Assembly (NCBI GenBank): GCA_021787845.1
Contig: JAJYLH010000056.1
Span: 1-35,305 of the forward strand
DNA length: 35,305 nt
Direction of reading: 5' to 3'
From: Myxococcales bacterium
Lineage (GTDB): Bacteria > Myxococcota > Myxococcia > Myxococcales > JAJYLH01
The translations under genes were made by a program, and so were the position numbers. Within the stretch, counting starts at the first letter, position 1. The number at the start of each line of letters is the position of its first letter. The notes under the pieces are model-generated. The model saw only the letters and a list, made by a program, of their open reading frames with translations. It was not told where the DNA came from and searched no databases. Shown piece by piece: positions 1 through 35,305 of this stretch.

Positions 1-15
1 GCGGCGTCAGCGTGC

Positions 16-84
16 GGCGGGGGGCAAGCCCCCGCCCTACGGTTCTTGAAGTCCCTGCCTGCACCCGGACACTGGCGTGTCCGG
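16..84. repeat. Two intergenic hairpins downstream of the nitrogenase-like operon
   Basis: Positions 16-36 form a GC-rich hairpin (GGCGGGGG stem) followed by CCCTACGG. Positions 65-84 form CCGGACAC, a 4-base loop, and GTGTCCGG. Relatives of both hairpins occur near 19066-19085, 19111-19130 and 19248-19277, so they belong to dispersed intergenic families. They lie 3' of the minus-strand operon ending at 128 and could aid termination, but no T-run follows either stem. Confidence 0.55.
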
Positions 85-127
85 CTCCAACTCCAATTCC
101 GATTCCCATTTGAAACAGCGCGGAGCC

Positions 128-1390
128 TCAGATCTCCGGGAGAGCCCCGTTGATCCTCTCGGCCCAGGTGACGGTGCCGCGAAACCCGAGGTGCGGCGCC
201 GGACGCAGGTAGTGGGCTCGAAAGGAGGGATAGCCGAGCTCCACGAACGGCACCCGGGCGACCTCGCCTTGGAGCGCCCGCCGCTCCCACGAGCTACCGA
301 CGATGAAATCCAGCCCGCCGCCCGCGAGCTCCGCTCCGAGCCGCTCGTTCAACAGACGCACGCTGGGGTCGAAATCGCGGTCGAGCGCGTCAGGGTCGGC
401 GCCGTCCGGACCGTGCCGGCTCCGGCCAAGCCGCACCGGCACCTCGATGCCGAAGTCCTCCTCGAACATCCGCGCCAGGCCCGCGAGCCAATCGTCGCTC
501 GCGATGATCGCCGCCCGGCGCCCCGCGAGGCGGCCGGTGACCACCCGTTCCATCCGTTCGGTCGCCTCGGCCAGCTCGGCGCCAACGAACTTCTCCGCCT
601 GCTCCGACTCGCCCGCCGCGAGCTGACGCACCCACTCCGCGGTCTGACCGAGGCCAATCGGCAGCGGCAACTCATGCACCGTCGCGCCGGTGCGAGACGC
701 GATAATCGACGCGGCCTTGCGCCCGGCACCGGTGGCGACGAGCGTCGAGGCCCCCGCGACCCGCGCCAGCTCGGCCGTCGTCTGCCCCGACAGCCAACTT
801 CCCGCATAGGCGCGGCCGGCGCCCTCGCACAGCCGGGCCAGCTCCCGCAGGTCTCCTTCGTGCTCGCCGCCGGTGCGCGTCCACGGATAGCCGATGATCG
901 CAACGGCCTCGTCGGCGCGGCCGGCAACGTCGAGGTGCGAGGCCAGGTCGGCGAGCACCTGCGTCGCGGCGTCGCCGGAATCGCGCTCCACGTGCCCGAA
1001 GGAAGCCGCGACGACCGGCACCTCGATGCTCGCCCGCAACTCATCAGCGAGTCCCGGCAGGTCCTCGCCGGCAATGGTGATGCGCGACAGCTCGGCCAGG
1101 ATGAGCAGCCCCGGACGGCACCGCTCGACGATCTTGCGCGCCGTCTTCTCGATGACGGGGAGCGTTCCCATCGGCGCGACCGATTGATCGGTGAAGGTGG
1201 TGATGAGCCGGGGATTGTCCGCCGGCGTCGCCAGGCTCCCGCGCGGATCGTGGCGGCGCAGCGTGCTCATCGCGTGCTCGTGGACGCACGCGGCGCCGCA
1301 GTAGAGGAGAACCGCGTCCGCGATGCCGCTCGCGGTCATGAAAACGCCGTCGAGAAAAGTCGGCGAAGTGCGCAGCGAGAAATCGTTCAT
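128..1390 (-). CDS. Nitrogenase component-1-like subunit (third gene, NifK position)
   Basis: A 420-residue protein of the nitrogenase/protochlorophyllide-reductase component 1 superfamily. In this family a NifH-like ATPase passes electrons to an FeS cluster held between two related subunits. Seen here: the N-terminal helix and turn ending YCGAACVHEH (C31, C35), which matches the family HGPxGC element; the ERCRPGLLILAELSRITIAG stretch before GEDLPG (107-113), matching the strand before the IGDD loop; and the C-terminal VPFVELGYPSFRAHYLRP with a GFRG motif, typical of NifK-type ends. Only C35 aligns with a canonical ligand. The first ligand position appears to be Thr and the third is Ser102. 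Its ATG overlaps the upstream TGA (ATGA). It is shorter than NifK (about 520 residues) and near BchN in size. Substrate unknown. Confidence 0.8.
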   Translation of the reverse strand: MNDFSLRTSPTFLDGVFMTASGIADAVLLYCGAACVHEHAMSTLRRHDPRGSLATPADNPRLITTFTDQSVAPMGTLPVIEKTARKIVERCRPGLLILAELSRITIAGEDLPGLADELRASIEVPVVAASFGHVERDSGDAATQVLADLASHLDVAGRADEAVAIIGYPWTRTGGEHEGDLRELARLCEGAGRAYAGSWLSGQTTAELARVAGASTLVATGAGRKAASIIASRTGATVHELPLPIGLGQTAEWVRQLAAGESEQAEKFVGAELAEATERMERVVTGRLAGRRAAIIASDDWLAGLARMFEEDFGIEVPVRLGRSRHGPDGADPDALDRDFDPSVRLLNERLGAELAGGGLDFIVGSSWERRALQGEVARVPFVELGYPSFRAHYLRPAPHLGFRGTVTWAERINGALPEI

Positions 1391-3540
1391 GGCATGCCGA
1401 TCCCATGGCCGCTCGATGGGCTTCGCTCCGCTTCACCCGTCCTGCTCAACAGGCGTAACCGAGACTTGGCGAGAAGGCGCAGGAGGGTTCGCCGTGCGCC
1501 CTTGAGACCCGGTTCGAGGTCCCGCACCGTGAAGGGCACCGCGCCCTGGGCTCGTGCGGCGGCGCCGTCGCCGACCTCGCAATAGACGAGCTGGTCTTTG
1601 CCACTGACGATCGCCGGGAGCGGATTCTCCCCCCGAGCGCACTCCCAGGCGGACACCCGGCCGGGAGCCGCCGCGGCCTGGCGGTCGGCCTCTTCTTGCG
1701 CGCCCGGTCCGGCGAGGCGCACCCGGAATCCGAAGTCGAGCGCCGCGCGCACCGGATCGACGCCATAGAAGAACTCGGGCTCGCACATCTGCGCGACGGT
1801 TCCGCGGTCGGCGACGAGGACCAGCTCCACCTGCGAGGCCGCCTCCCGCAACCGCGCGAGGTCCGGAATCACCGTTTCGACGAGCGCCGCCCAGGTCGCG
1901 TCATCCGGTTCCGGCAGGTCCACCGCGCGCGCGACCGCGCTCGCCCAGGCGCGCGTGCCGCCGGGCCCGTACGGCGACGGCAGCTCGAGATACGGAAATC
2001 CCAGCTCGGCGAAGAGCGGCACCAGCACGCGTCCGACGGGCGCCCAGGGCGTGGCGATGGTGACTTGCGCGCGGCCGGCCTCGCCCTCGAAATCCGCTCG
2101 GGTGCCAGGGAAGAAGGAAGTCCGCACCCGCACGCCGATGGCCGCGAGCAGCCGGTCCAGCTCCAGCGAGACTCGCCCGTCGGGCCAATCGAGACCGGCG
2201 AGATTCACCGTCCGCGGCTCCCGGTCCGTCGAAGCCGCGCTCGCCAGTCGGTCGCGCCACCAGTTCCAGCTCCAGGCGTCGGTGAAACGGGGGAGCGGCG
2301 GGTTCAGCAGCCGCACTTGCCGGCCGTCTTCTCTCTTCAGCCGGCAGATGCCCGCGGTGTCGTCGCCGATGACGTTGAAGTCGCAGCCTTCGATCACCCG
2401 GACCGGGCAGTCGGCGACCTGGTCCAGGGCCGACTCCAACCGCTTCTCGCCACCGAAGACGAGGGAGCTCTCGTCGGTGTCGGTGACTAGGAACTCGGAG
2501 GAGGTGGCGGCGAGGCTCGGCCGTTCTTCCCAGGGGGTCGAGCCCAGCGCGCCATGAGAGGAGAGCGCGCCATTCGCGATGGGGCACTCGCGGCTCGCAT
2601 GGGCGACGAACACCAGCGATTCACTGCCGGCCGCGGTGACCGCGAAGGCGTCCTGGTCTCCCCAGACGTGGAAGAAGCGGCTCGGCTTTGAATCCCAATG
2701 CCGCCAGCTCCGGAAGCAGTGCTTGATGAGCGGCTCGTCGAACCCCGGCGGGCCTTCCGGGGGCGGCGCGTTCACGTCCTCCGGCGGGCGCGCCTCCCCG
2801 TTCGGTGCCTCGCCATTGGAGTCACCGGTGCGCTCTCCCGTTCGATCGCCGGTCCGATCGCCCTGCGCTCCCACGCTTCCCGGCTCGACGGGTTGCCAGC
2901 GCATGTCGCTGTGGAATGCCCGCGAGAGGACGAACGCGACCGCCGCCTCGGGTTGCGAGGCAGGCGCTTCGCGTCCGGGCGCCGAGCCCTCCTCGAGGCG
3001 CGTCAGGGTGCCGAGGGGCGTCGTCATGAGCGGGGTCTCGCCTGGCGGCAAGGGTCCCGCGGTCAGGCCGAGCAGACACCGGCCCGGCGGCTGCGAAGAA
3101 ACGAGGTCGAAGACGAACCGGGGGAAGGGACCGCTCACGCACTCGAGCTCGGCGAGCTGCCAGTCGTGCCAGAACGGTTTGCCCGGCTCGATCTGGAAGG
3201 CGATCAGACCGAGCAGGCCCGGCGCCGACAGCTCGACGCGTTCGTGCTCCCGATTGAGCCGGTCGAGCCAGGGCGCGAACGCCTCTCGCCGCGCGGCCAC
3301 GAGCCCGCCTCGTAGCGCCTGAATCCAATCCAGCCTGGTTTCCCCCGAGAACAGCGGATTGAGCCCGACGTCGCTGGGGCCCCAGCCGGAAACGAGCCTC
3401 GCCTGGACCGGCCGGCCGCGGTAGACGAGGCTCAGGAGAAGCTCGCCGCGCTGGCTCGGCACCGCGTCCTGGCAGACGAGGGGCGGCCGCGAGAGGTGCC
3501 CGGCGAGCTGGCCCAGGAGCGTCTCCAACGGCGCGATCAT
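1387..3540 (-). CDS. Nitrogenase component-1-like subunit with extra N-terminal domain (NifD position)
   Basis: A 717-residue protein. Residues about 280-700 show component-1 features: FVAHASREC (C319) at the HGSxGC position, VFGGEKRLESALDQV (361-375), and VRVIEGCDFNVIGDD with C386 six residues before the Gly of IGDD, as in family members. The first canonical Cys is absent. Residues 1-215 form a domain I do not recognise. Residues about 217-268 are a hydrophilic linker with a tetrapeptide repeat (DRTG DRTG ERTG) and many Pro and Glu. At 717 residues it is much longer than NifD or BchB (about 480-530). The start is fixed by AAAGGTGG seven bases upstream and by the ATGA overlap with the NifH-like gene. 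Its TGA overlaps the next ATG in the same way. It probably pairs with the 128-1390 product. Function unknown. Confidence 0.8.
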   Translation of the reverse strand: MIAPLETLLGQLAGHLSRPPLVCQDAVPSQRGELLLSLVYRGRPVQARLVSGWGPSDVGLNPLFSGETRLDWIQALRGGLVAARREAFAPWLDRLNREHERVELSAPGLLGLIAFQIEPGKPFWHDWQLAELECVSGPFPRFVFDLVSSQPPGRCLLGLTAGPLPPGETPLMTTPLGTLTRLEEGSAPGREAPASQPEAAVAFVLSRAFHSDMRWQPVEPGSVGAQGDRTGDRTGERTGDSNGEAPNGEARPPEDVNAPPPEGPPGFDEPLIKHCFRSWRHWDSKPSRFFHVWGDQDAFAVTAAGSESLVFVAHASRECPIANGALSSHGALGSTPWEERPSLAATSSEFLVTDTDESSLVFGGEKRLESALDQVADCPVRVIEGCDFNVIGDDTAGICRLKREDGRQVRLLNPPLPRFTDAWSWNWWRDRLASAASTDREPRTVNLAGLDWPDGRVSLELDRLLAAIGVRVRTSFFPGTRADFEGEAGRAQVTIATPWAPVGRVLVPLFAELGFPYLELPSPYGPGGTRAWASAVARAVDLPEPDDATWAALVETVIPDLARLREAASQVELVLVADRGTVAQMCEPEFFYGVDPVRAALDFGFRVRLAGPGAQEEADRQAAAAPGRVSAWECARGENPLPAIVSGKDQLVYCEVGDGAAARAQGAVPFTVRDLEPGLKGARRTLLRLLAKSRLRLLSRTGEAERSPSSGHGIGMP

Positions 3541-4373
3541 CCCTCGACCACCTTTCGCAGATGGCTTTCGAGCAGCGCCTGGAGCTGGGCGTCTTCGAGC
3601 GGCGTCGGGATGACGAGGTCGTCGGGGCCGGTCGCGAGCAGGGCCTCCACCGCCTGCGCGCACGCGAGACCGGCGGGCGAATCCGGAAACGCTTCCACCA
3701 CGGTCGTGTCCCGCAGCTCGGCGAGGACCACCGCGTCGTCGCGCGGAATCCTGCCCACGACGCGGGTGCCGATGGCTTGGGCGAAGGTGTCGGCGAGCTC
3801 GTCCTCCCCGGGCGTGCCGCGGCGGTTCAAGAGCAGGCCCGCCAGCCGGCCCCCGCCGCGCCGGGCGAGGTTGACGATGCCCCGGGCGATGTTGTTGCCC
3901 GCGTAGATCGGCGCGACCTCGCCCGAGAGGACGATGTAGATGGCGGAGTCCTTGCCGGTGCGCATCGGGGCGGCGAAGCCCCCGCAGACGACGTCGCCCA
4001 AGAGGTCGTAGATGATGAGATCCCAGCGGTCGAGGAAGCCGGAAGTCTCGCGCATCAGGTCGAGGACCAGGTTGATGGCGCGCCCGGCGCAGCCGACGCC
4101 CGGCTCGGGACCGCCGATTTCGAGGCAGTCGACGCCCGCGCGCCCGCGGACGATCAGCCGTTCCAGGTCGGCGCTGCTCAGCCGCCCCCGCGTGGCCAAA
4201 TAGCTCATCACCGGCTCGACCGGGCCGCCCTGGTGCGCGCACGAGTCGTGCTTGGGGTCGCAGCCGACCTGCAAGACGCGCTGGCCGGCGCGCACCGCGA
4301 GTTGCGCGAGGATCGTGGTCAGGGTCGACTTGCCGATGCCGCCCTTGCCGCTGATGACGACCTTCCTGGGCAC
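3537..4373 (-). CDS. NifH/BchL/CfbC-like iron-sulfur ATPase (nitrogenase-like reductase component)
   Basis: A 278-residue P-loop ATPase of the NifH family, whose homodimer carries a Fe4S4 cluster and donates electrons to component 1 with ATP hydrolysis. Seen: Walker A GKGGIGKST (9-17); CDPKHDS (38-44) at the NifH CDPKADS position, with His for Ala; EPGVGCAGR (cluster Cys95, Arg98); and GDVVCGGFA (cluster Cys130). Both cluster cysteines are therefore kept. The start chosen is GTG at 4373, which puts PRKVVISGKGG at the N-terminus as in NifH. A longer reading from GTG at 4448 would add an unrelated Pro-rich leader. First gene of a three-gene operon. NifH, BchL, BchX, CfbC and MarH cannot be told apart by eye, and the partner subunits match none of them clearly. 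Confidence 0.9.
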   Translation of the reverse strand: MPRKVVISGKGGIGKSTLTTILAQLAVRAGQRVLQVGCDPKHDSCAHQGGPVEPVMSYLATRGRLSSADLERLIVRGRAGVDCLEIGGPEPGVGCAGRAINLVLDLMRETSGFLDRWDLIIYDLLGDVVCGGFAAPMRTGKDSAIYIVLSGEVAPIYAGNNIARGIVNLARRGGGRLAGLLLNRRGTPGEDELADTFAQAIGTRVVGRIPRDDAVVLAELRDTTVVEAFPDSPAGLACAQAVEALLATGPDDLVIPTPLEDAQLQALLESHLRKVVEG

Positions 4374-4562
4374 GGCCGAGGATGGACACGGTTCGAGCCC
4401 GGGGTCAAGAGGGCTGGCGGCGAGCGGCCGCCCGGCCCGGCACGGCACGGATCCGCTTGCGGACGAACCGTTGCACCGCGCCGTTTGCCCGGCCGCTCGT
4501 CCCGACCGCCGTCAAGGGAGGTGGAGCCGTGCCCGAAAGGTCTCCCCCGGCACCGGAGACCC
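4374..4562. promoter_or_regulatory. Upstream region of the nitrogenase-like operon
   Basis: This 190-bp stretch separates the NifH-like start from the tandem array and must hold the operon promoter, unless transcription starts within or beyond the array. I see no convincing sigma-54 (TGGC-N8-TTGC) or sigma-70 promoter on the minus strand, and no obvious ribosome binding site before the GTG at 4373. The assignment rests on position only. Confidence 0.3.
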
Positions 4563-5035
4563 TGCCCCGAGATCCGAGACCTTGGCCCGAGCCCGAAAAC
4601 GGTCTGCCCCGAGATCCAAGACCCTGCCCCGAGATCCAAGACCCTGGCCCGAGCCCGAAAACGGTCTGCCCCGAGATCCAGGACCCTGCCCCGAGGATGT
4701 AGGACACCTGCCCCGAGATCCAAGACCTTGCCCCGAACCCGAAAACGGTCTGCCCCGAGATCCAAGACCTTGCCCCGAGATCCAGGACCCTGCCCCGAGG
4801 ATGTAGGATACCTGCCCCGAGATCCAAGACCCTGCCCCGAGGATGTAGGATACCTGCCCCGAGATCCAAGACCTTGCCCCGAGGATGTAGGACACCTGCC
4901 CCGAGATCCAAGACCCTGCCCCGAACTCGGAGACCCTGCCCCGAGATCCAAGACCCTGCCCCGAACTCGGAGACCCTGCCCCGAACTCAGAGACCCTGCC
5001 CCGAACTCAGAGACCCTGCCCCGGGCCAACGGGCC
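4563..5035. repeat. Tandem array of 22 units in two lengths (20 and 22 bp)
   Basis: Each unit begins TGCCCCGA (TGGCCCGA in two) and ends with one of four tails. Tail A is GATCCAAGACCC with variants (12 nt), B is GCCCGAAAACGGTC (14 nt), C is GGATGTAGGACACC (14 nt) and D is ACTCGGAGACCC (12 nt). Full units run from 4563 to 5016, with a partial unit after. Because 20- and 22-bp units alternate irregularly, no reading frame is kept, so the open frames across it are incidental. Types B and C never follow themselves and are always separated by type A. Type D dominates the right end. Role unknown; a protein-binding array or a slippage-prone minisatellite is possible. Confidence 0.9.
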
Positions 5036-5321: not shown

Positions 5322-8300
5322 TCAGTAGGCATCTCCCGGGCGCCGAAGGAGGTCGAGCGGCACGTCGTCGAGTCTGTAGAGCCCTGCAACGATGCCGTCG
5401 ATCTCGCCGCGCAGGCGAGAAATCTCCTCGTCGTATGCGACTAGGTCGAAGGGCGCCGCGCCCACCGACTCGGCATGGCGATCCAGATGCGCCAGGTTTC
5501 TTTCCAGCGTCGGCTCATCCTGTCCAGGGCCAGCCTCGACGGGAAGAGGAGTATCGAGCGCGGCGGCAAGCGAGGTAGCCTTGCGCGTGCGCGCTCTGAG
5601 CGCCGCTTCGATGACCATCGCCGCCCAACGCGCCCGGTCCGACGAAGTGAACACCGCCTCGTGCTCAGCGTGGCGGGTCGAGAGAACCACCGTCAGCCCG
5701 CGCCAGACCACCGTGACTTCTCCCGGCTCGTCGCGCTTGCCCGACGTCCGAGTGGCGAGCGGGTCGCACCATCGGCTCTCGAGCAGCGCGCGGATGGTCA
5801 TCGCGGTCTTCGACGCTCGCGCCAACCGTCCGATGAGCACCGGCGCCTCGCGCCGCAGGCGAACCAGCGCCGAGAGCCGTTCCGATGCCCGCGCCAGCGG
5901 CTCTTGCGCCTCGCCGAGCGCAGCCGGCACCGGAACCTCGTCGAGCGGACCACGGTCGAGCTGCAGCATCTCTCCTTTGCGCTTGCCGCGATGGTAGAGC
6001 CAGAAGCAAACCGGCGCGCTGTTCAGGACCGCCGTCCACGCGCGCAGGGACTCGTCACTCGCCTCCGCGTGCGCTGTCAGGACCTGACACGCGAGGTCGA
6101 CGTAGTAGGCATCGGGGACATACGCGAACGCCGATTCTGGGGTTTGCCGAGGAGTCACGATCTTGGGCTTGAGGAAGATACTCTCCTCGCGTGGCCAGTG
6201 GAGTTGGAACCACTCCCGTTTTTCTTCCTCGGTCTCGCGACGCCTCTCCATGATTTCGCGGAAGCGCGCGAGATGCTTGGCGACGCGCGGGAACCGAGCG
6301 ATATCTGGACATGTCTTCTCGCTGAGATACAGAAGCTGTGACTCGGCCTCGGGGTCGGCATCGAACGCGGCGATGTCACGGGCGAAGTGGAAGGGCCTCA
6401 GGAGCTTGCGTTCGCTCGGTGAAAGCTCGAGCTTGCGCACTTCGTCGCGCGAAAGGACGAACACGCCTTCACCGATTTCCAGATGGTGTCGTTCGCAGTA
6501 GTCCTCGATCTCCTCATCCGAGGGCTCGCCTTCGCCTTTCCTCTCTTCCCGCACGAGCTTCGCGATCGCCTTGCGCCCGACGTCGTTCGGACCGGTCACG
6601 ACGCCCTGGTTCACGAGAAAGACGTCGGCGAGCTTGTTCGGCTGCGCCGCCATCCGCTTGCAGATTTCCTCGGCGGCCGCGGGCGCGAGCTTCATGGCTC
6701 CCCGGTCATCGACGAGCTCGCGCTGAGCGGGCGCCTCGTACCGTCGCACCGCCGGCAGGTCCTCGCCGCCGAACGCGCGCCAGACCGCCGCCTCATCGGA
6801 AACATCCCGCACGCGCGCCACTCGCGGGCGGTTCTCCGGCGCAGGCTCCTTGCGCGCGAGGAGCACGACGTTGTGCTGCCCCGGCGCCGATTCCTTGAAG
6901 ACCTTCACGTCGCCGAAGAAAAAGAATTCCTCCAGCGTCATGCGCTGCGCGAGCATCCGATTCAAGCCCGCCGCGCCCTCGGCTTTCTCGAAGTAGATCG
7001 GAAGGATGTATCCCAGGCGGCCGCCCGCCTTCAGGAGCCGCTCGCCGAGGTGGAGGAAGAAGAAGGCGTAGTCCATCTTCCCTTCGTAGGCGTCCGCGAG
7101 GAACGGCCAGTCCTTCACGAGTCGGAAGATTTCCTTGTGATCCTCCTCGCCGATGTAGGGCGGGTTGCCGATGATGGCGTCGAACTCGATGCCGTGCAGC
7201 TCGACATCGTAGAAAAACGCTGGCTCCGGCAACCGAATCCCCGCGGCGCGGAGCTTCTCGTGCGCCCCGCGGATGATCTCAGGAATCCCTTCCTCCAAGG
7301 CATCGCGGTTCGGCCCGAAGCTCGCCGCGACTTGCCCACGAAGGTTCCGAATGCGGTGGAGGTTCGCCCCCGATTCCTTCGCCGCGGCGATCACGTCCGC
7401 GCGCGGCGGCCCAAGCAGGCTGTTCGCGCAGAAGACGTTCACCTTGAGCGGCGGCAGCACGTGGTTCGTCTCGTGCCCCTGGAGGTTCTGCCAGTCGAAC
7501 GCGGCCGGGTTCGCGCGGACCATCGCGAGCCAGAGGTTCAGCTTTGCCACTCCCACCGCGCCCGGGTCGAGGTCGATGCCGAAGATGCAGGCGACGAGCA
7601 GTCGTTTCGGCATCTCGTCGGGCGCGCGCGGCTGAGTCAGGGAGAGCTGCGAGCCGTTGGCCTGTGCCGCGGAGACCTGCTCGCGCAGGCGCTCCTTGAA
7701 CTGCTTCTCCCAGTCCTGATAGACCGCGACGATGCGCCGGTAGGCCGCGATGAGAAACGAACCCGAGCCGCACGCGGGGTCCAAGACGCGCAAGCTCAGT
7801 AGTCGCTCCTGGATGAGGCGGCGGGACTCCTCGAGATGGCCTTCGCGCAGGGGTTCCAGAGCCTCGCGCGCCATTCGATCGACCAAGGCGCCCACGGTGC
7901 GCTCGACGATGCCCTCCACCACCTCGTGCCGCGTGTAGTAGATGCCCCGTTCGCGACGAAGTCCCGCGAGATAGCGCTCGTAGACGTGTCCGAGGACATC
8001 GACGTCGAGCGCGGCGAAGTTGAACGAATAGAGGTCGTCGCCGAAGAGCCGATCCGCGCCCGGCGCGCCGAGGAGCACGGCCTTGAGCGCGTCGACAGAG
8101 ACGTTTTCCGTTCCGACCTCGTGGAAGATCTCGGTGTCGTAGTAGTCGTAAAACCATTCGTTCAGATCCTTCAGGAAGTAGCCGACTGCCTTGGAGGGCT
8201 TCCGCCGTTCGACGGCCTCGAGCAGGCGCCGGGCGAGGTCGCGATGCCGAACGCATCCCAGATCCTCGAGCGTGCGAACGAAGAGGAACTTGTTCAGCAG

Positions 8301-8957
8301 AAGGATGGACGCCCGCCGCGACTCGGGGGAGCCGTCTTGCAGGTTCCCGCAGAGCAGCTCCACCCACCGCGAGAGCGCGCGATAGAAACGCTCGGCCAGG
8401 TCGGCGCGTTTCCCTTCATCGCGGGCGCGGGCGAGCGTGTCGGCCAAGCGGTCCGGCCCGAGCCGCTCCAGGAGGTCCGGCGAAGACGAGCCGATGAGCT
8501 GCTCCGAGCGGACGACGTAGAACGGCTCCGCGCCGCCCCGCAGCTCCGAGCGCGAGAAGAACATCCACGTGAGAGCGTCGGTCAGCACGAGGTACTCGAC
8601 GCGCGGGTCCTCGAGATACTTCTTCTTCTCTTCCGCGGACTTTCCCAGAGCGCAGCGGTAGGCATCCGCCCGAAGGTTGAACGCGGGCGCCTTGACCTCG
8701 ACGGCGGCGAGCTTGTCGCCGCTCAGGGGTAGCGCGTAGTCCGCATCGCCGGTCGCGAGGTGGAACTCGCTCGCCGGCCGGTAGCCCAGCGCGCCCAAGA
8801 GGGGCGCGAGGAACTTCTCGCGGAGGTTCTCCTCCGGCTTCGCCTCCTGTCGCCGAACGAGATGCAGATAGTGCGCGACGTCTGGATCGCTCAAGTCAAG
8901 CTCGGCTAGCGCGCGCAAATGATTTCGGACCGCGCGTTGCTCCTCACTCCAGGACAT
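5322..8957 (-). CDS. Type IIG-like restriction-modification enzyme (Eco57I-class N6-adenine methylase with fused nuclease)
   Basis: A 1211-residue single-chain enzyme. The N-terminus shows a PD-(D/E)XK-like pattern (Asp73 in DADYALPL, then EVK at 87-89), fitting a fused endonuclease. The SAM-binding motif I DPACGSGSF lies at about 393-401 and the catalytic motif NPPY at 598-601, preceded by IIG. Order and spacing match the gamma-type N6-adenine methylases of Eco57I-like Type IIG enzymes. The C-terminal 400 residues should hold the target-recognition domain (DAYYVDLACQVL, LNSAPVCFWLYHRGKRKGEM). The ATG at 8957 follows GGAG with suitable spacing; longer readings add repeat-derived sequence. No separate specificity or methylase gene is adjacent, consistent with one polypeptide doing all jobs. 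The recognition site cannot be read from sequence. Confidence 0.88.
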   Translation of the reverse strand: MSWSEEQRAVRNHLRALAELDLSDPDVAHYLHLVRRQEAKPEENLREKFLAPLLGALGYRPASEFHLATGDADYALPLSGDKLAAVEVKAPAFNLRADAYRCALGKSAEEKKKYLEDPRVEYLVLTDALTWMFFSRSELRGGAEPFYVVRSEQLIGSSSPDLLERLGPDRLADTLARARDEGKRADLAERFYRALSRWVELLCGNLQDGSPESRRASILLLNKFLFVRTLEDLGCVRHRDLARRLLEAVERRKPSKAVGYFLKDLNEWFYDYYDTEIFHEVGTENVSVDALKAVLLGAPGADRLFGDDLYSFNFAALDVDVLGHVYERYLAGLRRERGIYYTRHEVVEGIVERTVGALVDRMAREALEPLREGHLEESRRLIQERLLSLRVLDPACGSGSFLIAAYRRIVAVYQDWEKQFKERLREQVSAAQANGSQLSLTQPRAPDEMPKRLLVACIFGIDLDPGAVGVAKLNLWLAMVRANPAAFDWQNLQGHETNHVLPPLKVNVFCANSLLGPPRADVIAAAKESGANLHRIRNLRGQVAASFGPNRDALEEGIPEIIRGAHEKLRAAGIRLPEPAFFYDVELHGIEFDAIIGNPPYIGEEDHKEIFRLVKDWPFLADAYEGKMDYAFFFLHLGERLLKAGGRLGYILPIYFEKAEGAAGLNRMLAQRMTLEEFFFFGDVKVFKESAPGQHNVVLLARKEPAPENRPRVARVRDVSDEAAVWRAFGGEDLPAVRRYEAPAQRELVDDRGAMKLAPAAAEEICKRMAAQPNKLADVFLVNQGVVTGPNDVGRKAIAKLVREERKGEGEPSDEEIEDYCERHHLEIGEGVFVLSRDEVRKLELSPSERKLLRPFHFARDIAAFDADPEAESQLLYLSEKTCPDIARFPRVAKHLARFREIMERRRETEEEKREWFQLHWPREESIFLKPKIVTPRQTPESAFAYVPDAYYVDLACQVLTAHAEASDESLRAWTAVLNSAPVCFWLYHRGKRKGEMLQLDRGPLDEVPVPAALGEAQEPLARASERLSALVRLRREAPVLIGRLARASKTAMTIRALLESRWCDPLATRTSGKRDEPGEVTVVWRGLTVVLSTRHAEHEAVFTSSDRARWAAMVIEAALRARTRKATSLAAALDTPLPVEAGPGQDEPTLERNLAHLDRHAESVGAAPFDLVAYDEEISRLRGEIDGIVAGLYRLDDVPLDLLRRPGDAY

Positions 8958-9155
8958 GTCCTTCGCTCCACCGCCCGCCGTTAATAATCGGCATCCCGCG
9001 GGACGCCGCGGCAACATACACCGGACGGCAGAGTGGCGGCAACAGCGCTGGGTTCCTGGCGTGTAGAAGGAAGCCCAAGCGGTCGAGGAGTGCGAACCCG
9101 GGCCGCGGTGGGGTCGCGGTCGAGGTCGCTCCGTGTGGTCGGCATCGGTCACGGG

Positions 9156-9349
9156 CGAAAGAGGGTGCAGGCTCGGCCCGGAGACGTCGAGTCGAGCGCA
9201 GTTGGCCGGCGTCGAGACGAACCTCTCCCGGCGGTCGGCCTGAAAGCACCCGCGAAAGAGGGTGCAGGCTCGGCCCGGAGACGTCGAGTCGAGCGCAGTT
9301 GGCCGGCGTCGAGACGAACCTCTCCCGGCGGTCGGCCTGAAAGCACCCG
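9156..9349. repeat. Perfect 97-bp tandem duplication in IS91 tail
   Basis: Positions 9156-9252 and 9253-9349 are identical, and a third, partial copy seems to begin at 9350. The unit resembles, on the opposite strand, the segment at about 17545-17640 next to the second IS91 remnant. It therefore probably derives from the 3' terminal region of that element. Confidence 0.85.
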
Positions 9350-9390
9350 CGGAAGAGCTGCCGCAAGGATCGAGAGGAGCTACGCCGCCA

Positions 9391-9680
9391 TCAGCGGTGG
9401 GCCGCGGGCGTAGGTGGTCGCCTCGCCGGGTGGATGAGGTAGCGGGCGATCTCCTCGGGGTCGTGTAGCACTGCGATCGGGCGCAGCCGTCCCTTGCAGC
9501 GAGAGCCCTCGAGGGCGTCACCGCCCCAGGTTCGGCGGATCAGCTCGGCCCAGAGGAGGCGCTCGGCGTGCGGCTCCTCGGCGGCCTCGCTCGGCGTCGG
9601 CTCGTCGTGGCGGTGCTCGCAAGCGGAGCCCCGGCGTTTCGTCGGTGCGGGCACCACGAGTGAGCGCTCTTTCGCAGCGC
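9391..9680 (-). pseudogene. IS91-family transposase, C-terminal fragment
   Basis: The minus strand reads LVVPAPTKRRG, then WAELIRRTWGGDAL, then RCKGRLRPIAVLHDPEEIAR. This matches the C-terminal WAELxRRxFxxDxLxCPRCxGRxRxIAxIxDP pattern of IS91-type Y2 rolling-circle transposases. The first cysteine pair of the zinc motif is lost (GSRCKGR where CPRCGGR is usual). The N-terminal catalytic region, with its HxH and two tyrosines, is missing. A sister fragment lies at 17104-17640 in the opposite orientation, so the two bracket the RHS region with their 3' tails outward. A dead relic. Confidence 0.75.
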
Positions 9681-9729
9681 GTGCCGGACATGGTCGGCAG
9701 CGAGCGCGAGCGCTGGCGGCGTCCCTGAT

Positions 9730-10512
9730 ATGGAAAAGGCGCGGAAGCCTCGCGATCCGAAAGCGAAGGTGATCCGCCTCTACCTCGCCGACGCACCGCG
9801 CTTTGTCTCGCGGCGGATCGGGCTTCACTTCACCCATCCTACGGTTTGCGTCGGGGGACAACCTGCGGGCGTCGCTGATGGGCTCCGCTCCGCTCCACCC
9901 ATCCTACGGCTCCATCCCGCTCATCCTGGGCGGCTCCACCCCACCCATCCTACGGCTTCACCCCGCTCATCCTACGGCTCCACCCCGCTCATCCTGAGCG
10001 GCTCCGCTCCACCCATCCTACGGCTCCACCCCGCTCATCCTGGGCGGCTCCACCCCACCCATCCTACGGCTCCACCCCGCTCATCTGAGCGGCTCCACCC
10101 CGCTCATCCTGAGCGGCTCCACCCCGCTCATCCTGGGCGGCTCCACCCCGCTCATCCTGAGTGGCTCCACCCCGCTCATCCTGAGCGGCTCCACCCCGCT
10201 CATCCTGAGCGCAGTCGAAGGACGAGCGTCCTCGCGCTGGTCCTCGCCGCGGCGATCGCCGGATTTTCCAGCCCGCTCCTCGCGTCGGGCACGACCTCGC
10301 CGCCGCCGGAGACGAGCGCTCCGGCCTGCACGAAGCCCTCCGACTGTCCGCACGGGGCGTGCCTGCACACGCGCGACGGCGGGCGCTGCACCAAGGCCTG
10401 CCAGACCGACGCCGACTGCGCCGCGCCCGGGTTCTGTCAGACCTGGCGCGGGATGCGCGGACACGTCGAACGGTACTGCACCTTCGAGGGCCGGGGCTGG
10501 CGCCGGCGCTAG
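9730..10512 (+). CDS. Small cysteine-rich secreted protein, 5' end overrun by a repeat array
   Basis: Only the last 95 codons (from about 10228) look like a real protein. There is a hydrophobic signal segment (VLALVLAAAIAGFSSPLLA), a Ser/Pro/Thr linker, then about 60 residues with eight cysteines in C-x6-C, C-x3-C and C-x5-C style spacing (ACTKPSDCPHGAC and KACQTDADCAAPGFC). No in-frame start codon lies between the array and the signal segment, so the formal frame begins at ATG 9730 and reads through 13 noncoding repeat units. Either the original start was lost when the array expanded, or the start is unusual. The gene sits 26 bp before the RHS gene on the same strand and may be co-transcribed. 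Function unknown. Confidence 0.45.
   Translation: MEKARKPRDPKAKVIRLYLADAPRFVSRRIGLHFTHPTVCVGGQPAGVADGLRSAPPILRLHPAHPGRLHPTHPTASPRSSYGSTPLILSGSAPPILRLHPAHPGRLHPTHPTAPPRSSERLHPAHPERLHPAHPGRLHPAHPEWLHPAHPERLHPAHPERSRRTSVLALVLAAAIAGFSSPLLASGTTSPPPETSAPACTKPSDCPHGACLHTRDGGRCTKACQTDADCAAPGFCQTWRGMRGHVERYCTFEGRGWRRR
9881..10226. repeat. Tandem array of about 13 units in two lengths (22 and 24 bp)
   Basis: Units start GGCTCCACCCC (or GGCTCCGCTCC) and end in CACCCATCCTAC (22-bp type) or GCTCATCCTGAGC/GGGC (24-bp type). One unit is 23 bp, and one 22-bp unit joins the two types. The last copy continues as CTCATCCTGAGCGCAGTCGA and AGGACGAG (10199-10226), a palindromic intergenic repeat that also occurs at 19520-19548. 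The array seems to have grown from one end of that palindrome. Mixed unit lengths break any reading frame. Confidence 0.85.
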
Positions 10513-10538
10513 CCCCTGTGGTAAGACAGGAGACGACG

Positions 10539-13500
10539 ATGCGCTCGGTCTACTTCGCGGCAGCCATCTTTCTCGCCAGTACCCTCGCCGCCAGCGGCGC
10601 GCGGGCCTACTACTGCCGCGCACGCGACCCTAACGCTTGCGGCTTCACGCCCACCGGCGGCAGCAGCCCCGCCAGCGACGACTCTCCCGGCTCCGCCGAC
10701 AACATCGGCGACCCGGTCCAGGTCGGGACCGGGTGGGCCTACCACCGCGAGCGGCTCTTCTCGGCGCCAGCGGGCGGCGGGCTGATGTTCGACTTCATGG
10801 TGGAGTACGAGAGCGCGGGATGGGAGGATTCCACTTCCCAGGACTTTGGCACCTTTAATCCGGGATGGACCGACAGCCTCGATGTCACGATGACCAACGA
10901 TGGCACTCTCGGCGGCTTCTGGGCCATCAAAGACGAGATTGGCGGGCAGCATGCCTTTACCAACACGCCGATTCTCAACGTCTCCACCAACGTCTACGAT
11001 CCCTTGGACGAACAGAACTACACGACCCTCACCGCCCGGACCGATGGAGGGTATGACTGGACTCGCGAGGATGGGACGGTCTGGACGTTCGGGGCTGAGA
11101 ACTGCGCCGCGAGTGGCCAACCCGAAACTCATTGCTTGGTACAGATTGCCGATCGCACCGGTGCGAACAAGATCGTGATTCAGCGTTCTTCGACCGCGCC
11201 GTATCGTGAGATCACCTCCATCACTCTTCCCACCTACGGGGAAACCTTTGACTTCAGCTATGTCAACCTCGGCACCGACCCGCCCAACGACGGTCTGAGC
11301 ACCGTCACCGAGGTTGTCGGCGCCAACCAGTTTCCGGTTGCCGCGTTCACCTACGATTCGCAGGTGCTCAGCGGCTTCACGGATGCCGGCGGCTACTCGC
11401 TTCTCAGTTATGACCCGACGACCGGCAGCCTCGCGACGGTCGACCGCCAGACCAGCTCGACGAGCAACGACCCGGTCCGACTCGTGAAGTACACCTGGAA
11501 TACCAGCGACCTGGTCGGCACCCTGAAAGATCGCAACAACGATCTCGACTTCACGTACGACAGCAACGACGGCGACACGACGGTGACAGACAACACGCAG
11601 TCGGGTCCGCCCTCGGCCAAGTACTACTGGACTTCGTACGGCACTGGCGAGTTCATCCGGGTCTACGACATCGAGCCGGACGCGACCTACCCGATGCACT
11701 GCGTACACTGTAACCGTGGCGTCAGCTTCGAGTTCGACCGGCGCATCAACCGGGCCGCGGTGAAGAACGTGCACGGCCAGTGGACGACGTATCTCTATGA
11801 CGACGATCAGGTCATCTGGAACGGCGCGAACAACTCGACCGCGACCGTCACGACGGGTCAGCCCGACGTCTTGTACGATCCCTCCGCGGACTTTACCGGG
11901 GCCAATCCGGGGGACACTCCTGTCCAGCCGGGCGACGTCTTTCGATGGTTGCGCGCGGACGGCACGCGCAACTGCCTGGTCACGCCGGCCCCGGGTCGGC
12001 TCTGCGACGACGATAACGATGGGAACCAGGACGAGAACATCGTGGCGCAGGTGATCGACCAGACACACGTCCAGCTCGACTCGACGGTCGACACCGGCGC
12101 CAAGCCGAACTACTGGATCGTGCGCGAGAAACGATACGACAACGTGATCAACGGCACGAACGGAAGCATCAAGACGCGGCATCTTCTTGAAAACAGCGCG
12201 TCAGATCCCGCCTTCACGAACGCCGGAATTCAGGCGGGTGACGAGGTCGATGTCCTCGATGTGAACAGCAACGTCGTTGCCACGGTCTACGTTGACACAG
12301 ACGATGCCATGGACCCCCGATGGCTATCGCTGACGGGGTCCATCTCGGGCTATGGGCAGGGTGGATACGGATACCGCGTCCTGGACGGCAGTGGAACGAC
12401 AATCACGACCGGAGCCGTGTACGCCACCGACGACGAAGAGCTGCTCTATGATCCGAACGAGAACTTTCAAGTCTACGCCGCGCCGAACGACCAAATCGAC
12501 GTCGGAGGCGGCGTCCTTCCCGCGCCGGTCACCACCCTCGACTCGAGCGCCGCCTTCTTGAGCCTGTCCGGGATCCCGGAGGGGACCTATCCGAGCTACA
12601 ACATCCAGCGTAGTCGGGACAGCTACGCGGCGAAGAACGGCGGCCGCGTCTTGCGTGCCGTCGAGAACAACATGCGCTGGAACGGCACCTCGTGCGTAGC
12701 GGACCCGGATCCATGGACCGAGGACACCGCGCACTGTCAAGGCCCTGGCTTGTCCGAGGTCACGACCTACGAGTACGACAACGCGGTCTACCCGAACTTG
12801 GTCACTGCCATCGAGCGTCCGAGCATCGTCGCCGGGCAGACGACTTCCACCATCTACGACTACAACCCGAATCCGTCCATCGCGACCGCGAACATTACCT
12901 GTAGCGACCCTCCATCTGATTTCGGGGTGCCGCTTGGAACGCAGAACGCGGGGCTCCTTCGGCGGAAGATCGAGATCGGCTGGACGAACGACTCGACTTT
13001 CACGTCCGCGTGCACGGTGCGCGTCACGACCTACACGTACTCGACCTCCGCTCCTTACGAGCTCCTGAGCATCACCGGTCCCTTGGGGACCAGCGATGTG
13101 ACACAGTACGGCTACGGAACAGACGGGTACTTGAGCACGATCAAACGATACACGGATTCGACGCACTACCTGGAAACGCAGCTCGGTGCCGCCGTCACGG
13201 GCTGCAGCGCCTCGGGTTACAACCCGGTCGGTCGGCCGCAGACGGTCATCGATCCGAACGGCGTCGGTTGGTGCCTCGGCTGGGATCTGCTCGGGCGGCT
13301 GACGTCGGTCCAGCGCGCCGACGCGGCGAGCGGATGGACCTTGTCCTACGACCAGTCGAACAACCTCGTCTCCGTCGTCGACCCGACCGGCACCACGACG
13401 CAGCGGGCGTTCGCCGGTGGGCGAGTCGGCGACCTCGCGGGAGGGTTTCTCAGCGCGGCGTCTCGGTCGACACCGTCCGGCACGCTCCTCTCCGAGACCT

Positions 13501-31979: not shown

Positions 31980-32010
31980 CCTCCTGGGCCCGTAGGTGAA
32001 GGAGCATCCG

Positions 32011-35000
32011 ATGTCGCAGATCAAGTGGCTCCGGACGGGCGCCCGCAAGTGGGCCGGGCTCGCACTGGTGGTTCTCGGAGGGCTCTGGCTGGTCTGGTGC
32101 GGTTCGCCGTCCCCCAAGCGGTGTGGCGGCCAGGTCTGCCCGCCGAGCGAGGTCTGCGATCGCTCCGCCTGCGTCGCGCCCGCCTGCGTGGGCAAGACCT
32201 GCCCCCAAGGCGCGACCTGCGTCGCCGGGGACTGTGTGACGAGGAGCTGCGCCAGCCGGCTGTGCGCCCCGACCGAGGTCTGCGACCACGACACCTGCCT
32301 CGACCCGACCTGCGTCGGAGTGAAGTGCGGCGCCGGCGAGGCCTGCGTGGCCAGCACCTGCTATCCGGAGGAATGTTCGGGCGGGTCGAAGTGCCCGGCG
32401 AACGGCGTCTGCATCTCGGGCGCGTGCGTTCCGGAAGGGTGCGCCGGGGTCAAGTGCGCGTCGGGGCAAGTCTGCGCGTTCGGAAGCTGTTACCCGACGA
32501 CGTGCAATGGGCAGGCGTGCTCTGGGGGCCAGGTCTGCGACTCGGCCTGCGTCGACGCGCTGTGCATCGGGATGAGCTGCGCGGCGGGCTCGAAGTGCGA
32601 AGCGGGCTTCTGTCGCGCCTGCGTGAACGGGAACTGCAATCCGAAGGGCGACGGGAAGATGTGCAGCGCGGCGAGCGAGTGCGCGAGCGGCTTCTGCGTG
32701 AACGGCGTGTGTTGTGATACCGCTTGCAACGACGGCTGCGACGTCTGCAACGATCCCGGTGAAGTCGGCACGTGCTCGGCTCTGCCCGCGGGCAGCAGCG
32801 GCAACGGCAGTCCGGACTGCGCGCCGTACGTCTGCGACGGCCAGGCCGCGGCGTGCCCGACGACGTGTTCGGCTGCGTCCGGTTGCGTGCCTGGGGACAC
32901 CTGCACCGGCGGAACCTGCGTCGCCAATCCTTCGAAGGCGGCGAACGGCACTGCCTGCTCCGGGGATGATCAGTGCGAGAGCGGCCACTGCGTCGACGGC
33001 GTCTGTTGCGACACCGCCTGCGCGGGCGGCTGCGATTCCTGCAACCTCGATGGGAAGGCTGGAACGTGCTCGATCGCGAGCGCCGGAAGCCCTGGCGCCG
33101 ATCCGAGCTGCGCGCCGTACGTCTGCGATGGCCAGACCGCGGCGTGCCCGACCTCGTGCGTCACCGCCGACGGCTGCGCGGCCGGGGACTACTGCGCGGC
33201 CGCGGACGGCGGAGTCTCCGGAACCTGTGTCGCGAACAAGGCGAACGGACAGGCGTGCCAGGCAGCAAGCGAGTGCACCAGCCAGAACTGCGTGGATGGC
33301 TTCTGCTGCGACACATCGTGCTCTGGATCTTGCGATGCTTGCAACGTCTCGGGGAAGGAAGGCATCTGTACGGTCGTCGCCCAGGGGGGCGCGGGCAATC
33401 CGAGCTGCGGTGCCTACGTCTGCAACGGGACCTCGGCCGCGTGTCCGACCGCGTGCACGTCGAGCTCGGACTGCGCGAGCGGGGACAACTGTACGGGCGG
33501 GAGCTGCAAGGCGAGTCGGACGAACGGAGCGAGCTGCGCCGCGGCGTCGGAGTGTGCGAGCGGCCATTGCGTCGACAATGTCTGCTGCGATTCCGACTGC
33601 GCCGGCGCGTGTGGCACCTGCGACTTGTCGGGTTCGGCCGGCACCTGCGAGCCGGAAGCGCGAGGTTTCCCGGTCGCGGCTTGCGCGCCGTACGTGTGCG
33701 ACGGCACGTCGGCGTCGTGCCCGACCGCGTGCCAGACGGACGCCGACTGCGACGGCGCGAGCTACTGCGTGAACAGCCAGTGCGCCGCGCGGCAGGCGAA
33801 CGGGAAGAGCTGCGTCAGCACCAATTCCTGCGCGAGCGGCAAGTGCGTCGACGGAGTCTGCTGCGACACGGACTGCGCCGGCGCGTGCGACGCCTGCAAC
33901 CTCGCGGGAAAGATCGGTACCTGCTCGCCGGACGATCTGGGTAGCGGCGGCAGTCCGGCTTGCGCGCCCTACGTCTGCGATGGCACGTCCGTGTCGTGCC
34001 CGACCGCGTGCGCCTCGGACGTGGACTGCGTCAGCGAAGATTACTGCGCTGGCACGGCGTGCGTGTTGAAGAAGTCGACCGGCGCGACGTGCGCGAAGTC
34101 CGATGAGTGCGCGAACGGCAACTGCGTGGATGGCTACTGCTGCGATACGTCGTGCTCGGGCGCTTGCGACGCATGCAACGTGAGCGGGAAGGAGGGAACC
34201 TGCACCGACGTGCCGGCCAGCAGCGCGGGGAGTCCGACGTGCAGCCCGTATGTTTGCAGCGGCTCGTCGTCGTCGTGTCCGACCTCGTGCAGCGCGGATG
34301 CGGACTGCATCAGCGGGGACTACTGCGATGGCAGCGCGTGCGAGTCGAAGAAGTCGAAGGGCACGAGCTGCGCGGGAGCGGATCAGTGCGCGAGCGGCTT
34401 CTGCGTGGATGGCTATTGTTGCGATACATCGTGTTCGAACGCTTGCGACGCATGCGACGTGAGCGGCAAGCTCGGCACCTGCAGCGTCGTCGCCGCGGGC
34501 AGCGCGGGGAGCCCGAGCTGTAGTCCGTATCTCTGCGATGGAACGAGCGCGTCGTGTCCGACGTCGTGCACCTCGAATGCGGATTGCGGGAGCGGCGACG
34601 TCTGCACTGGCGACGTGTGCGTGGGAAAGAAGGCGAACGGCGGAAGCTGCACCACGGCAGATCAGTGCGAGAGCGGGTACTGCGCGGACGGCTATTGCTG
34701 CGACACGGCTTGTTCGGACGCGGGCTGCCATGCGTGCGACGTGACCGGCAAGCAAGGGACTTGCACCAAGGTCGGATGCGACGCCGGCGCGACACAAGCT
34801 TGTGGCAACTGCGGAACCGAGACCTGCTCGTCGAGCTGCGGCTGGGGAAGCTGCAGCGGCGAAGGCGCCTGCAAGCCGAACGCGACGCAGGCGTGCAACA
34901 CCTACGGCAATCAGACCTGCTCCGGCTCTTGTAGCTGGGGAAGCTGCTCGTGTCCGAGCAATCCGGCCTGCACGCCAAACGCCACCCGGAATGTCAGTTG

Positions 35001-35305
35001 CGGGAACTGCGGCACGGCGCAAGAGACCTGCGACGCCTGCGGCCAATGGGGATCGGAAGGCACTTGCAACGGCCAGGGCTGCGCGCCCAACGCGACGCAA
35101 ACGTGTAACACCTACGGAAGCCAGACCTGCTCCAGCTCCTGCGCCTGGGGAAGCTGCTCGTGTCCGAGCAATCCGGCATGCACGCCAAACGCCACCCGGA
35201 ATGTCAGTTGCGGGAACTGCGGCACGGCGCAAGAGACCTGCGACGCCTGCGGCCAATGGGGATCGGAAGGCACTTGCAACGGCCAGGGCTGCGCGCCCAA
35301 CGCGA
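32011..35305 (+). CDS. Giant modular cysteine-rich exported protein (3' end outside window)
   Basis: ATG 32011 follows AAGGAG. At least 1098 residues, with no stop before the window edge. One hydrophobic segment (WAGLALVVLGGLWLVWC) near the N-terminus suggests export or anchoring; it does not fit a lipobox well. Short Cys repeats (CGGQVCPPSEVC style) run to about residue 210. Then come some seven modules of about 75-80 residues with the pattern CASGxCVDGxCCDTxCxGAC, DACNxSGKxGTC, CAPYVCDGTSAxCPTxC and DYCxGxxC. The last part (from 34881) changes to 70-residue modules such as ACNTYGNQTCSGSCSWGSC. Cysteines are mostly even in number per module, as for disulfide-rich outer-surface proteins. Ligand and role unknown. 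Confidence 0.85.
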   Translation, partial: MSQIKWLRTGARKWAGLALVVLGGLWLVWCGSPSPKRCGGQVCPPSEVCDRSACVAPACVGKTCPQGATCVAGDCVTRSCASRLCAPTEVCDHDTCLDPTCVGVKCGAGEACVASTCYPEECSGGSKCPANGVCISGACVPEGCAGVKCASGQVCAFGSCYPTTCNGQACSGGQVCDSACVDALCIGMSCAAGSKCEAGFCRACVNGNCNPKGDGKMCSAASECASGFCVNGVCCDTACNDGCDVCNDPGEVGTCSALPAGSSGNGSPDCAPYVCDGQAAACPTTCSAASGCVPGDTCTGGTCVANPSKAANGTACSGDDQCESGHCVDGVCCDTACAGGCDSCNLDGKAGTCSIASAGSPGADPSCAPYVCDGQTAACPTSCVTADGCAAGDYCAAADGGVSGTCVANKANGQACQAASECTSQNCVDGFCCDTSCSGSCDACNVSGKEGICTVVAQGGAGNPSCGAYVCNGTSAACPTACTSSSDCASGDNCTGGSCKASRTNGASCAAASECASGHCVDNVCCDSDCAGACGTCDLSGSAGTCEPEARGFPVAACAPYVCDGTSASCPTACQTDADCDGASYCVNSQCAARQANGKSCVSTNSCASGKCVDGVCCDTDCAGACDACNLAGKIGTCSPDDLGSGGSPACAPYVCDGTSVSCPTACASDVDCVSEDYCAGTACVLKKSTGATCAKSDECANGNCVDGYCCDTSCSGACDACNVSGKEGTCTDVPASSAGSPTCSPYVCSGSSSSCPTSCSADADCISGDYCDGSACESKKSKGTSCAGADQCASGFCVDGYCCDTSCSNACDACDVSGKLGTCSVVAAGSAGSPSCSPYLCDGTSASCPTSCTSNADCGSGDVCTGDVCVGKKANGGSCTTADQCESGYCADGYCCDTACSDAGCHACDVTGKQGTCTKVGCDAGATQACGNCGTETCSSSCGWGSCSGEGACKPNATQACNTYGNQTCSGSCSWGSCSCPSNPACTPNATRNVSCGNCGTAQETCDACGQWGSEGTCNGQGCAPNATQTCNTYGSQTCSSSCAWGSCSCPSNPACTPNATRNVSCGNCGTAQETCDACGQWGSEGTCNGQGCAPNA
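34881..35305. repeat. 210-bp tandem repeat inside the cysteine-rich gene
   Basis: The period is exactly 210 bp (70 codons): 34881-35090, 35091-35300, and a third copy beginning at 35301. By my count, 34941-35090 and 35151-35300 differ at one base (34968 versus 35178). The first 60 bp of each copy are more diverged. The window ends inside this array. Confidence 0.9.

Follow-up and report, generated by a model that had tools for sequence, protein, structure and literature searches.

An operon at the end of a Myxococcales contig encodes a nitrogenase-like reductase that branches apart from the reference clades of our trees and whose family co-occurs, across Myxococcota genomes, with the Hxs peptide system. 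It is made of a NifH-like ATP-dependent iron protein (H) and two component-1 subunits (D and K). As a complete account, we see about an even chance that H-D-K is a DPOR-like, ATP-driven two-component reductase acting in the maturation of the Hxs peptide.

The H-D-K operon and its Fe protein

The window, meaning the whole stretch of 35,305 nucleotides that was analysed, is contig C32 (1-35305) of an assembly (G000) that measures 6.24 Mb and is 98% complete. The operon occupies positions 128-4373 of the minus strand in the gene order H, D, K, and both junctions are ATGA overlaps (Table 1). A preliminary description had reported a NifH-like protein with a Walker A motif and both cluster cysteines, followed by two component-1 genes with such junctions, and all of these features were found. 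The frame of H has a longer alternative that extends to 4448. The contig stops 127 bp beyond K, so the absence of partner genes 3′ of K carries little weight, and the earlier remark that no known gene lies beside the operon is weak for the same reason. The window itself holds no Hxs gene, and no radical SAM gene is in view at the operon.

Table 1. Positions of the operon genes, their motifs and other features of the window
Feature	Position	Strand	Remarks
Contig end	1..127	.	gene content 3′ of K out of view
K, component-1 subunit	128..1390	-	420 aa; ATGA overlap with D; PF00148 145.7 bits
K C35	1286..1288	-	aligns with NifK C95; by hand alignment the BchB D36 position; sole invariant Cys in 16 K proteins
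D, component-1 subunit	1387..3540	-	717 aa; ATGA overlap with H; PF00148 79.7 bits
D C386	2383..2385	-	aligns with NifD C154 / BchN C112; invariant in 17 D proteins
D C319	2584..2586	-	aligns with NifD C88 / BchN C51; invariant in 17 D proteins
D N-terminal extra domain, residues 1-185	2986..3540	-	motif PGKPFWHDW; no Pfam match
H, NifH-like ATP-dependent iron protein	3537..4373	-	278 aa; GTG start
H C130 (DVVCGGF), second [4Fe-4S] ligand	3984..3986	-	invariant in family
H C95 (GVGCAGR), first [4Fe-4S] ligand	4089..4091	-	invariant in family
H Walker A GKGGIGKS, residues 9-16	4326..4349	-	family-invariant except one position
Tandem repeat	4557..5023		about 20/42/146 bp; between H and the restriction-modification gene
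Eco57I-type restriction-modification methylase gene	5322..9521	-	upstream of the H-D-K operon
Another repeat array	9887..10211
Large open frame	31996..35304	+	reaches the contig end; 210-279 bp tandem repeats encode Cys-rich repeats

The Pfam matches of all three proteins are far above chance. H matches Fer4_NifH (PF00142; 245.9 bits, E 7e-73) and is a complete Fe protein. Having component-1 subunits beside a NifH-type Fe protein that bears Walker A and both cluster cysteines, the operon belongs among the nitrogenase-like two-component reductases. By HMM score NifH is the nearest model to H, with 260 bits for the NCBIfam nifH model (cut-off 394) and 242 for CfbC (cut-off 402). None of H, D and K reaches an NCBIfam equivalog cut-off, and D and K stay far below. 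K matches Oxidored_nitro along its whole length (146 bits) and D in its core only (about residues 300-605; 80 bits). The best NCBIfam score of D is that of NifE, at 26 bits only, and its top PDB match is a MAR-type D; the best solved relatives of K are BchB proteins. Single-sequence AlphaFold2 models had a mean pLDDT of 34 for K and 33.5 for D.

Family placement and predicted cluster ligands of D and K

The references for the trees were Bch and Nif genes from public plasmids, bch and nif loci of Myxococcota and the MAR-like operon of one genome (G062); CfbCD was compared by HMM scores only. H, D and K all fall outside the Nif, NifEN, Bch (BchNB, BchYZ, BchX) and MAR-like clades. In the component-1 tree the 19 D rows form a group of their own (support 99/98), as do the 18 K rows (100/99), and the D and K of the window each pair with their counterpart on contig C1 of genome G163 (100/99). 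Likewise, the H of the window pairs with its G163 counterpart (88/98), whereas a second copy from the same genome belongs to a separate 13-row clade (98/93); several branches of this tree are long, and we claim no deep order from it.

The preliminary description held that the partners match none of the known relatives by length or ligand set, a view that placement of both component-1 proteins inside a named clade would have overturned. No such placement occurred among the clades compared, and the NCBIfam scores and the ligand set (for CfbCD, the HMM scores only) agree with the trees. Membership in COR (BchXYZ) is rejected since there is no placement with BchX, BchY or BchZ, and membership in MarHDK since the MAR-like operon lies outside the H-D-K family. 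We also rejected CfbCD, on the CfbC score and the presence of a K subunit, and Mo-nitrogenase NifHDK, on the nifH score of H, the far lower scores of D and K, and the missing FeMoco cysteine and NifB. NifEN fusions in family f6 gave weak matches to D and were set aside. The contig collection yielded no match to D, whether queried alone or as a pair, and plasmids yielded none to the D of the second copy.

Other nitrogenase-like loci were seen alongside. The MAR-like operon used as a reference (L077 6965-10920 (-)) is a methylthio-alkane reductase-like H-D-K whose H matches MarH at E 3e-114; its genome, G062, is a family f6 genome of the same order and also has a normal nifHDK-type NifH. At L073 7078-8919 (+) (G137 C2, about 142.1-143.9 kb), one frame of about 600 aa holds two complete tandem NifH-like domains, both with two cluster cysteines, the second with GTGGIGKS instead of GKGGIGKS. 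Two component-1 genes adjoin it on the opposite strand, and the H tree places this NifH in no named clade. Five loci in three genomes (L075, L076, L078, L079 and L084; G160, G114 and G155) carry bchXYZ and bchLNB genes, pointing to phototrophic Myxococcota.

Only three cysteines, D C319, D C386 and K C35, are conserved without exception among the 17 D and 16 K proteins compared. D and K have no counterpart of NifD C275, of the first cysteine of BchN/NifD, or of the second and third NifK cysteine positions apart from C95; where NifD has C275, the FeMoco cysteine, inspection of the sequences shows a proline in D. FeMoco and L-cluster ligands are absent from D and K in the alignment. No nifB match was found in the genome, which contains only two D-K pairs. 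The three invariant cysteines fit one bridging FeS cluster at the D-K interface, as in DPOR. Because of this ligand pattern and the lack of NifB, a single interface cluster is predicted, and FeMoco-type chemistry is strongly disfavoured.

An enzyme of the FeMoco or L-cluster type (nitrogenase, methylthio-alkane reductase or isethionate reductase) might be suggested by the HMM nearness of H to NifH and by the top PDB match of D. It is already contradicted by the missing C275 equivalent, the absence of NifB and the position of D and K outside the Nif and MAR-like rows, and we regard it as extremely improbable. MAR binds a P-cluster and a large [Fe8S9C] cluster (PMC12552129), whereas the operon described here has no MAR cluster ligands and its genome no NifB. 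A further point against it is that IsrD is placed beside MarD (PMC11423573). What the operon shares with Mar and Isr is the H-D-K arrangement, and Isr and the second copy in this genome each adjoin a radical SAM gene.

The resemblance to DPOR is closer in plan: three genes in the order H-D-K, one expected interface FeS cluster and no FeMoco ligands. The differences are nevertheless clear, and membership in BchLNB is rejected. D has two of the cysteines and K has one, as against three cysteines in BchN and an aspartate in BchB; D lacks the first cluster cysteine (BchN C26), and K has a cysteine at the position of BchB D36. The additional N-terminal domain of D and the separate positions of the two families in the trees set them further apart. 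The ligand set likewise differs from those of the Nif, NifEN, other Bch and MAR-like clades, in keeping with the earlier claim that it is unlike those of the named relatives.

Relatives in Myxococcota and the Hxs peptide system

The operon had been called an orphan, which it is not. On contig C148 the same genome has a second H-D-K (D 753 aa, K 457 aa) with a radical SAM gene after it, and about 12 further Myxococcota genomes carry relatives. When 195 genomes of the phylum were scanned with a D-pair profile, true relatives emerged in G163, G099, G100, G103, G104, G105, G107, G165, G166 and G167, and a K profile added divergent D-K pairs in G101 and G102. The subclade of the window has one other member found, the G163 operon on C1. 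Two relatives have a second, divergent D-K pair, G165 (L039 6025-8620 (-)) and G104 (L036 8189-9604 (-), with a D-like frame at 9487-12834 on the minus strand). These pairs are placed like NifEN beside NifDK, and the two form one branch at the family's base.

In a Pfam sample of the neighbours of these relatives, radical SAM genes dominate, and in G100, G107 and G165 the neighbourhoods link Hxs genes to H-D-K. The gene order in G100 is HxsB, H, D, K, with HxsA (127 aa) starting about 70 bp past K, and in G107 and G165 HxsB, H-D-K and HxsA all lie within about 14 kb. In G103, G104 and G105, HxsA and/or HxsB are found 20-30 kb from H-D-K on the same contig.

The genome of the window encodes HxsB (548 bits; NCBIfam cut-off 370) and HxsD (64 bits; cut-off 50), and further HxsC-like enzymes belong to the radical SAM suite; its Hxs genes lie on contigs C104 and C58 and not on the window contig. 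A small precursor that ends in HCS(HGS)nW came out of a scan for His-x-Ser repeats. There are two HGS-repeat precursors in this genome, one of them HCS(HGS)58W (contig C104 65353-65886 (-); L116 11354-11887), and the second lies immediately upstream of it. Repeat numbers are far lower in related precursors elsewhere. In the 58-repeat DNA, 11 different nine-base units encode the one peptide unit, which suggests selection on the peptide. Compared with the described Hxs system, the likeness is in HxsB and HxsD above their curated cut-offs and in the His-x-Ser precursor; the differences are the HCS(HGS)nW form of the precursor, the many extra radical SAM enzymes and the nitrogenase-like genes, which fall outside the described system within the limited literature searched. 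That search found no report linking nitrogenase-like genes with Hxs and no assigned product of the Hxs system.

The association holds across the phylum. The exact DNA pattern HCS(H[G/A]S)3 was found in 15 of the 195 genomes and its reversed control in none. Among the 13 K-family genomes, in which G101 and G102 are counted via a divergent D-K pair only, 10 have this HxsA pattern, against 5 of the 182 others (p 4.6e-11; family level p 0.002). HxsB follows a similar distribution (12/13 against 19/182; p 3.7e-10, family level p 1.2e-4), as does a radical SAM enzyme of the suite (12/13 against 2/182; p 2.6e-16), where all per-genome p values treat genomes, which are non-independent, as samples. The G163 genome has HxsB, and an exact HCS(HGS)3 match was not found in it. 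The core Hxs pathway does not depend on the reductase, since the precursor also occurs in five genomes that lack H-D-K. The window operon itself is tied to Hxs by family and genome, not by adjacency.

The extreme histidine content of the product bears on another reading, in which a NifEN-like D-K builds a metal centre or loads it into the His-rich peptide. The second D-K pair in some relatives, as in nif operons, and the NifE score of D, though low, would suit such a scaffold or inserter. We consider it very unlikely, as the genome has no NifB and the FeMoco and L-cluster ligands are absent.

D carries about 270 additional N-terminal residues ahead of its component-1 core, a feature that the preliminary description had passed over. 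The N-terminal domain of the window D is related to that of the D of L029 and weakly to those of L031, L033, L036, L037, L038 and L040 (hhalign 79%, E 1.6e-5); the D proteins of G099 (C47), G107 (C23), G100, G103, G104 and G105 are such weak relatives. In G100 the D whose gene immediately precedes the peptide gene has the window-like type of N-terminal domain. D proteins of the larger subclade start with one or two copies of a module of roughly 100 residues. The adjacent HxsC-like radical SAM protein has the same module at its N-terminus (hhalign 88.7%, E 2.5e-6), and other radical SAM-type cluster proteins carry it C-terminally (E 3.4e-6 and 2.9e-5). By profile comparison, the N-terminal domain of the window D is not detectably this shared module, and HxsD, used as a negative control, gave no match to the module. 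Large proteins of 670-960 aa adjoin H-D-K operons at L033 1542-6430, L031 198-2216 and L028 17334-19901; they have a GGCTFC-type or GCSFC-type cysteine motif and the radical SAM/D module at their C-termini, and are almost without Pfam matches (two weak DUF483).

A module common to D and radical SAM proteins could serve docking, and B12-binding radical SAM genes lie near two operons (L029 and L033). Both observations would fit H-D-K as an electron donor or activase that leaves the product untouched and reduces or reactivates partner enzymes, for example at cobalamin or FeS sites in the radical SAM suite. Flavodoxin or ferredoxin serves most radical SAM enzymes, and a full D-K pair exceeds the needs of a simple electron donor; this role therefore seems to us decidedly unlikely.

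Proposed role

Group VI nitrogenase paralogs, attributed to Meheust et al. 2020 (ISME J 14:2907), reportedly occur with an extensive radical SAM suite, also in Myxococcales, and a tetrapyrrole substrate was predicted for them. The family described here is probably this group, as matched by the reported description and the radical SAM context. The genome has 69 radical SAM matches, and orthologs of the suite co-occur with the family. The two accounts differ in the substrate, a tetrapyrrole there and the Hxs peptide here, and at the window operon no radical SAM gene is visible. The preliminary label of an unknown reaction thus stands, but the family had probably been described already.

A reductase of a tetrapyrrole or other small cofactor would reduce a double bond in the ring of a tetrapyrrole, itself also modified by radical SAM enzymes, yielding a new cofactor. 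DPOR, COR and CfbCD, the nearest mechanistic relatives, all act on tetrapyrroles, the best solved relatives of K are BchB, and some radical SAM enzymes of the suite score with the AhbD and NirJ models. Later papers repeat the prediction, citing group VI paralogs as putative tetrapyrrole cofactor genes (PMC9391474, PMC11257099). The AhbD and NirJ scores are far below cut-off, however, whereas HxsB and HxsD reach theirs and the repeat precursor is present, and the Pfam sample of operon neighbours showed no recognisable tetrapyrrole gene. On balance we hold a small-cofactor substrate to be unlikely.

For the peptide-directed reductase that we favour, a DPOR-like mechanism is highly likely. The H dimer would hydrolyse MgATP and hand single low-potential electrons to an FeS cluster at the D-K interface. 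This cluster, which we take to be a single bridging one, would be coordinated by D C319, D C386, K C35 and a fourth ligand, and FeMoco would play no part in its direct reduction of an organic substrate. That substrate may most plausibly be the HCS(HGS)nW peptide, or an intermediate on it, after modification by radical SAM enzymes, and the extra N-terminal domain of D could dock the peptide or a partner enzyme. That H-D-K has a role in the Hxs pathway is, in our judgement, rather probable. The narrower claim, that a nitrogenase-type ATP-driven reductase acts on the ribosomally made HCS(HGS)nW repeat and that the peptide itself is what is reduced, is tentative, and we rate it somewhat below even.

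The nitrogenase relatives of known role act on N2, tetrapyrroles or small organosulfur compounds, or serve metal cofactor assembly, and to our knowledge none has been demonstrated to act on a peptide. If the proposal is true, nitrogenase-type machinery would extend to peptides, and the radical-SAM-associated nitrogenase paralogs, for a long time unassigned, would gain a concrete and testable substrate, the HGS-repeat precursor. It would also point toward the product of the Hxs system.
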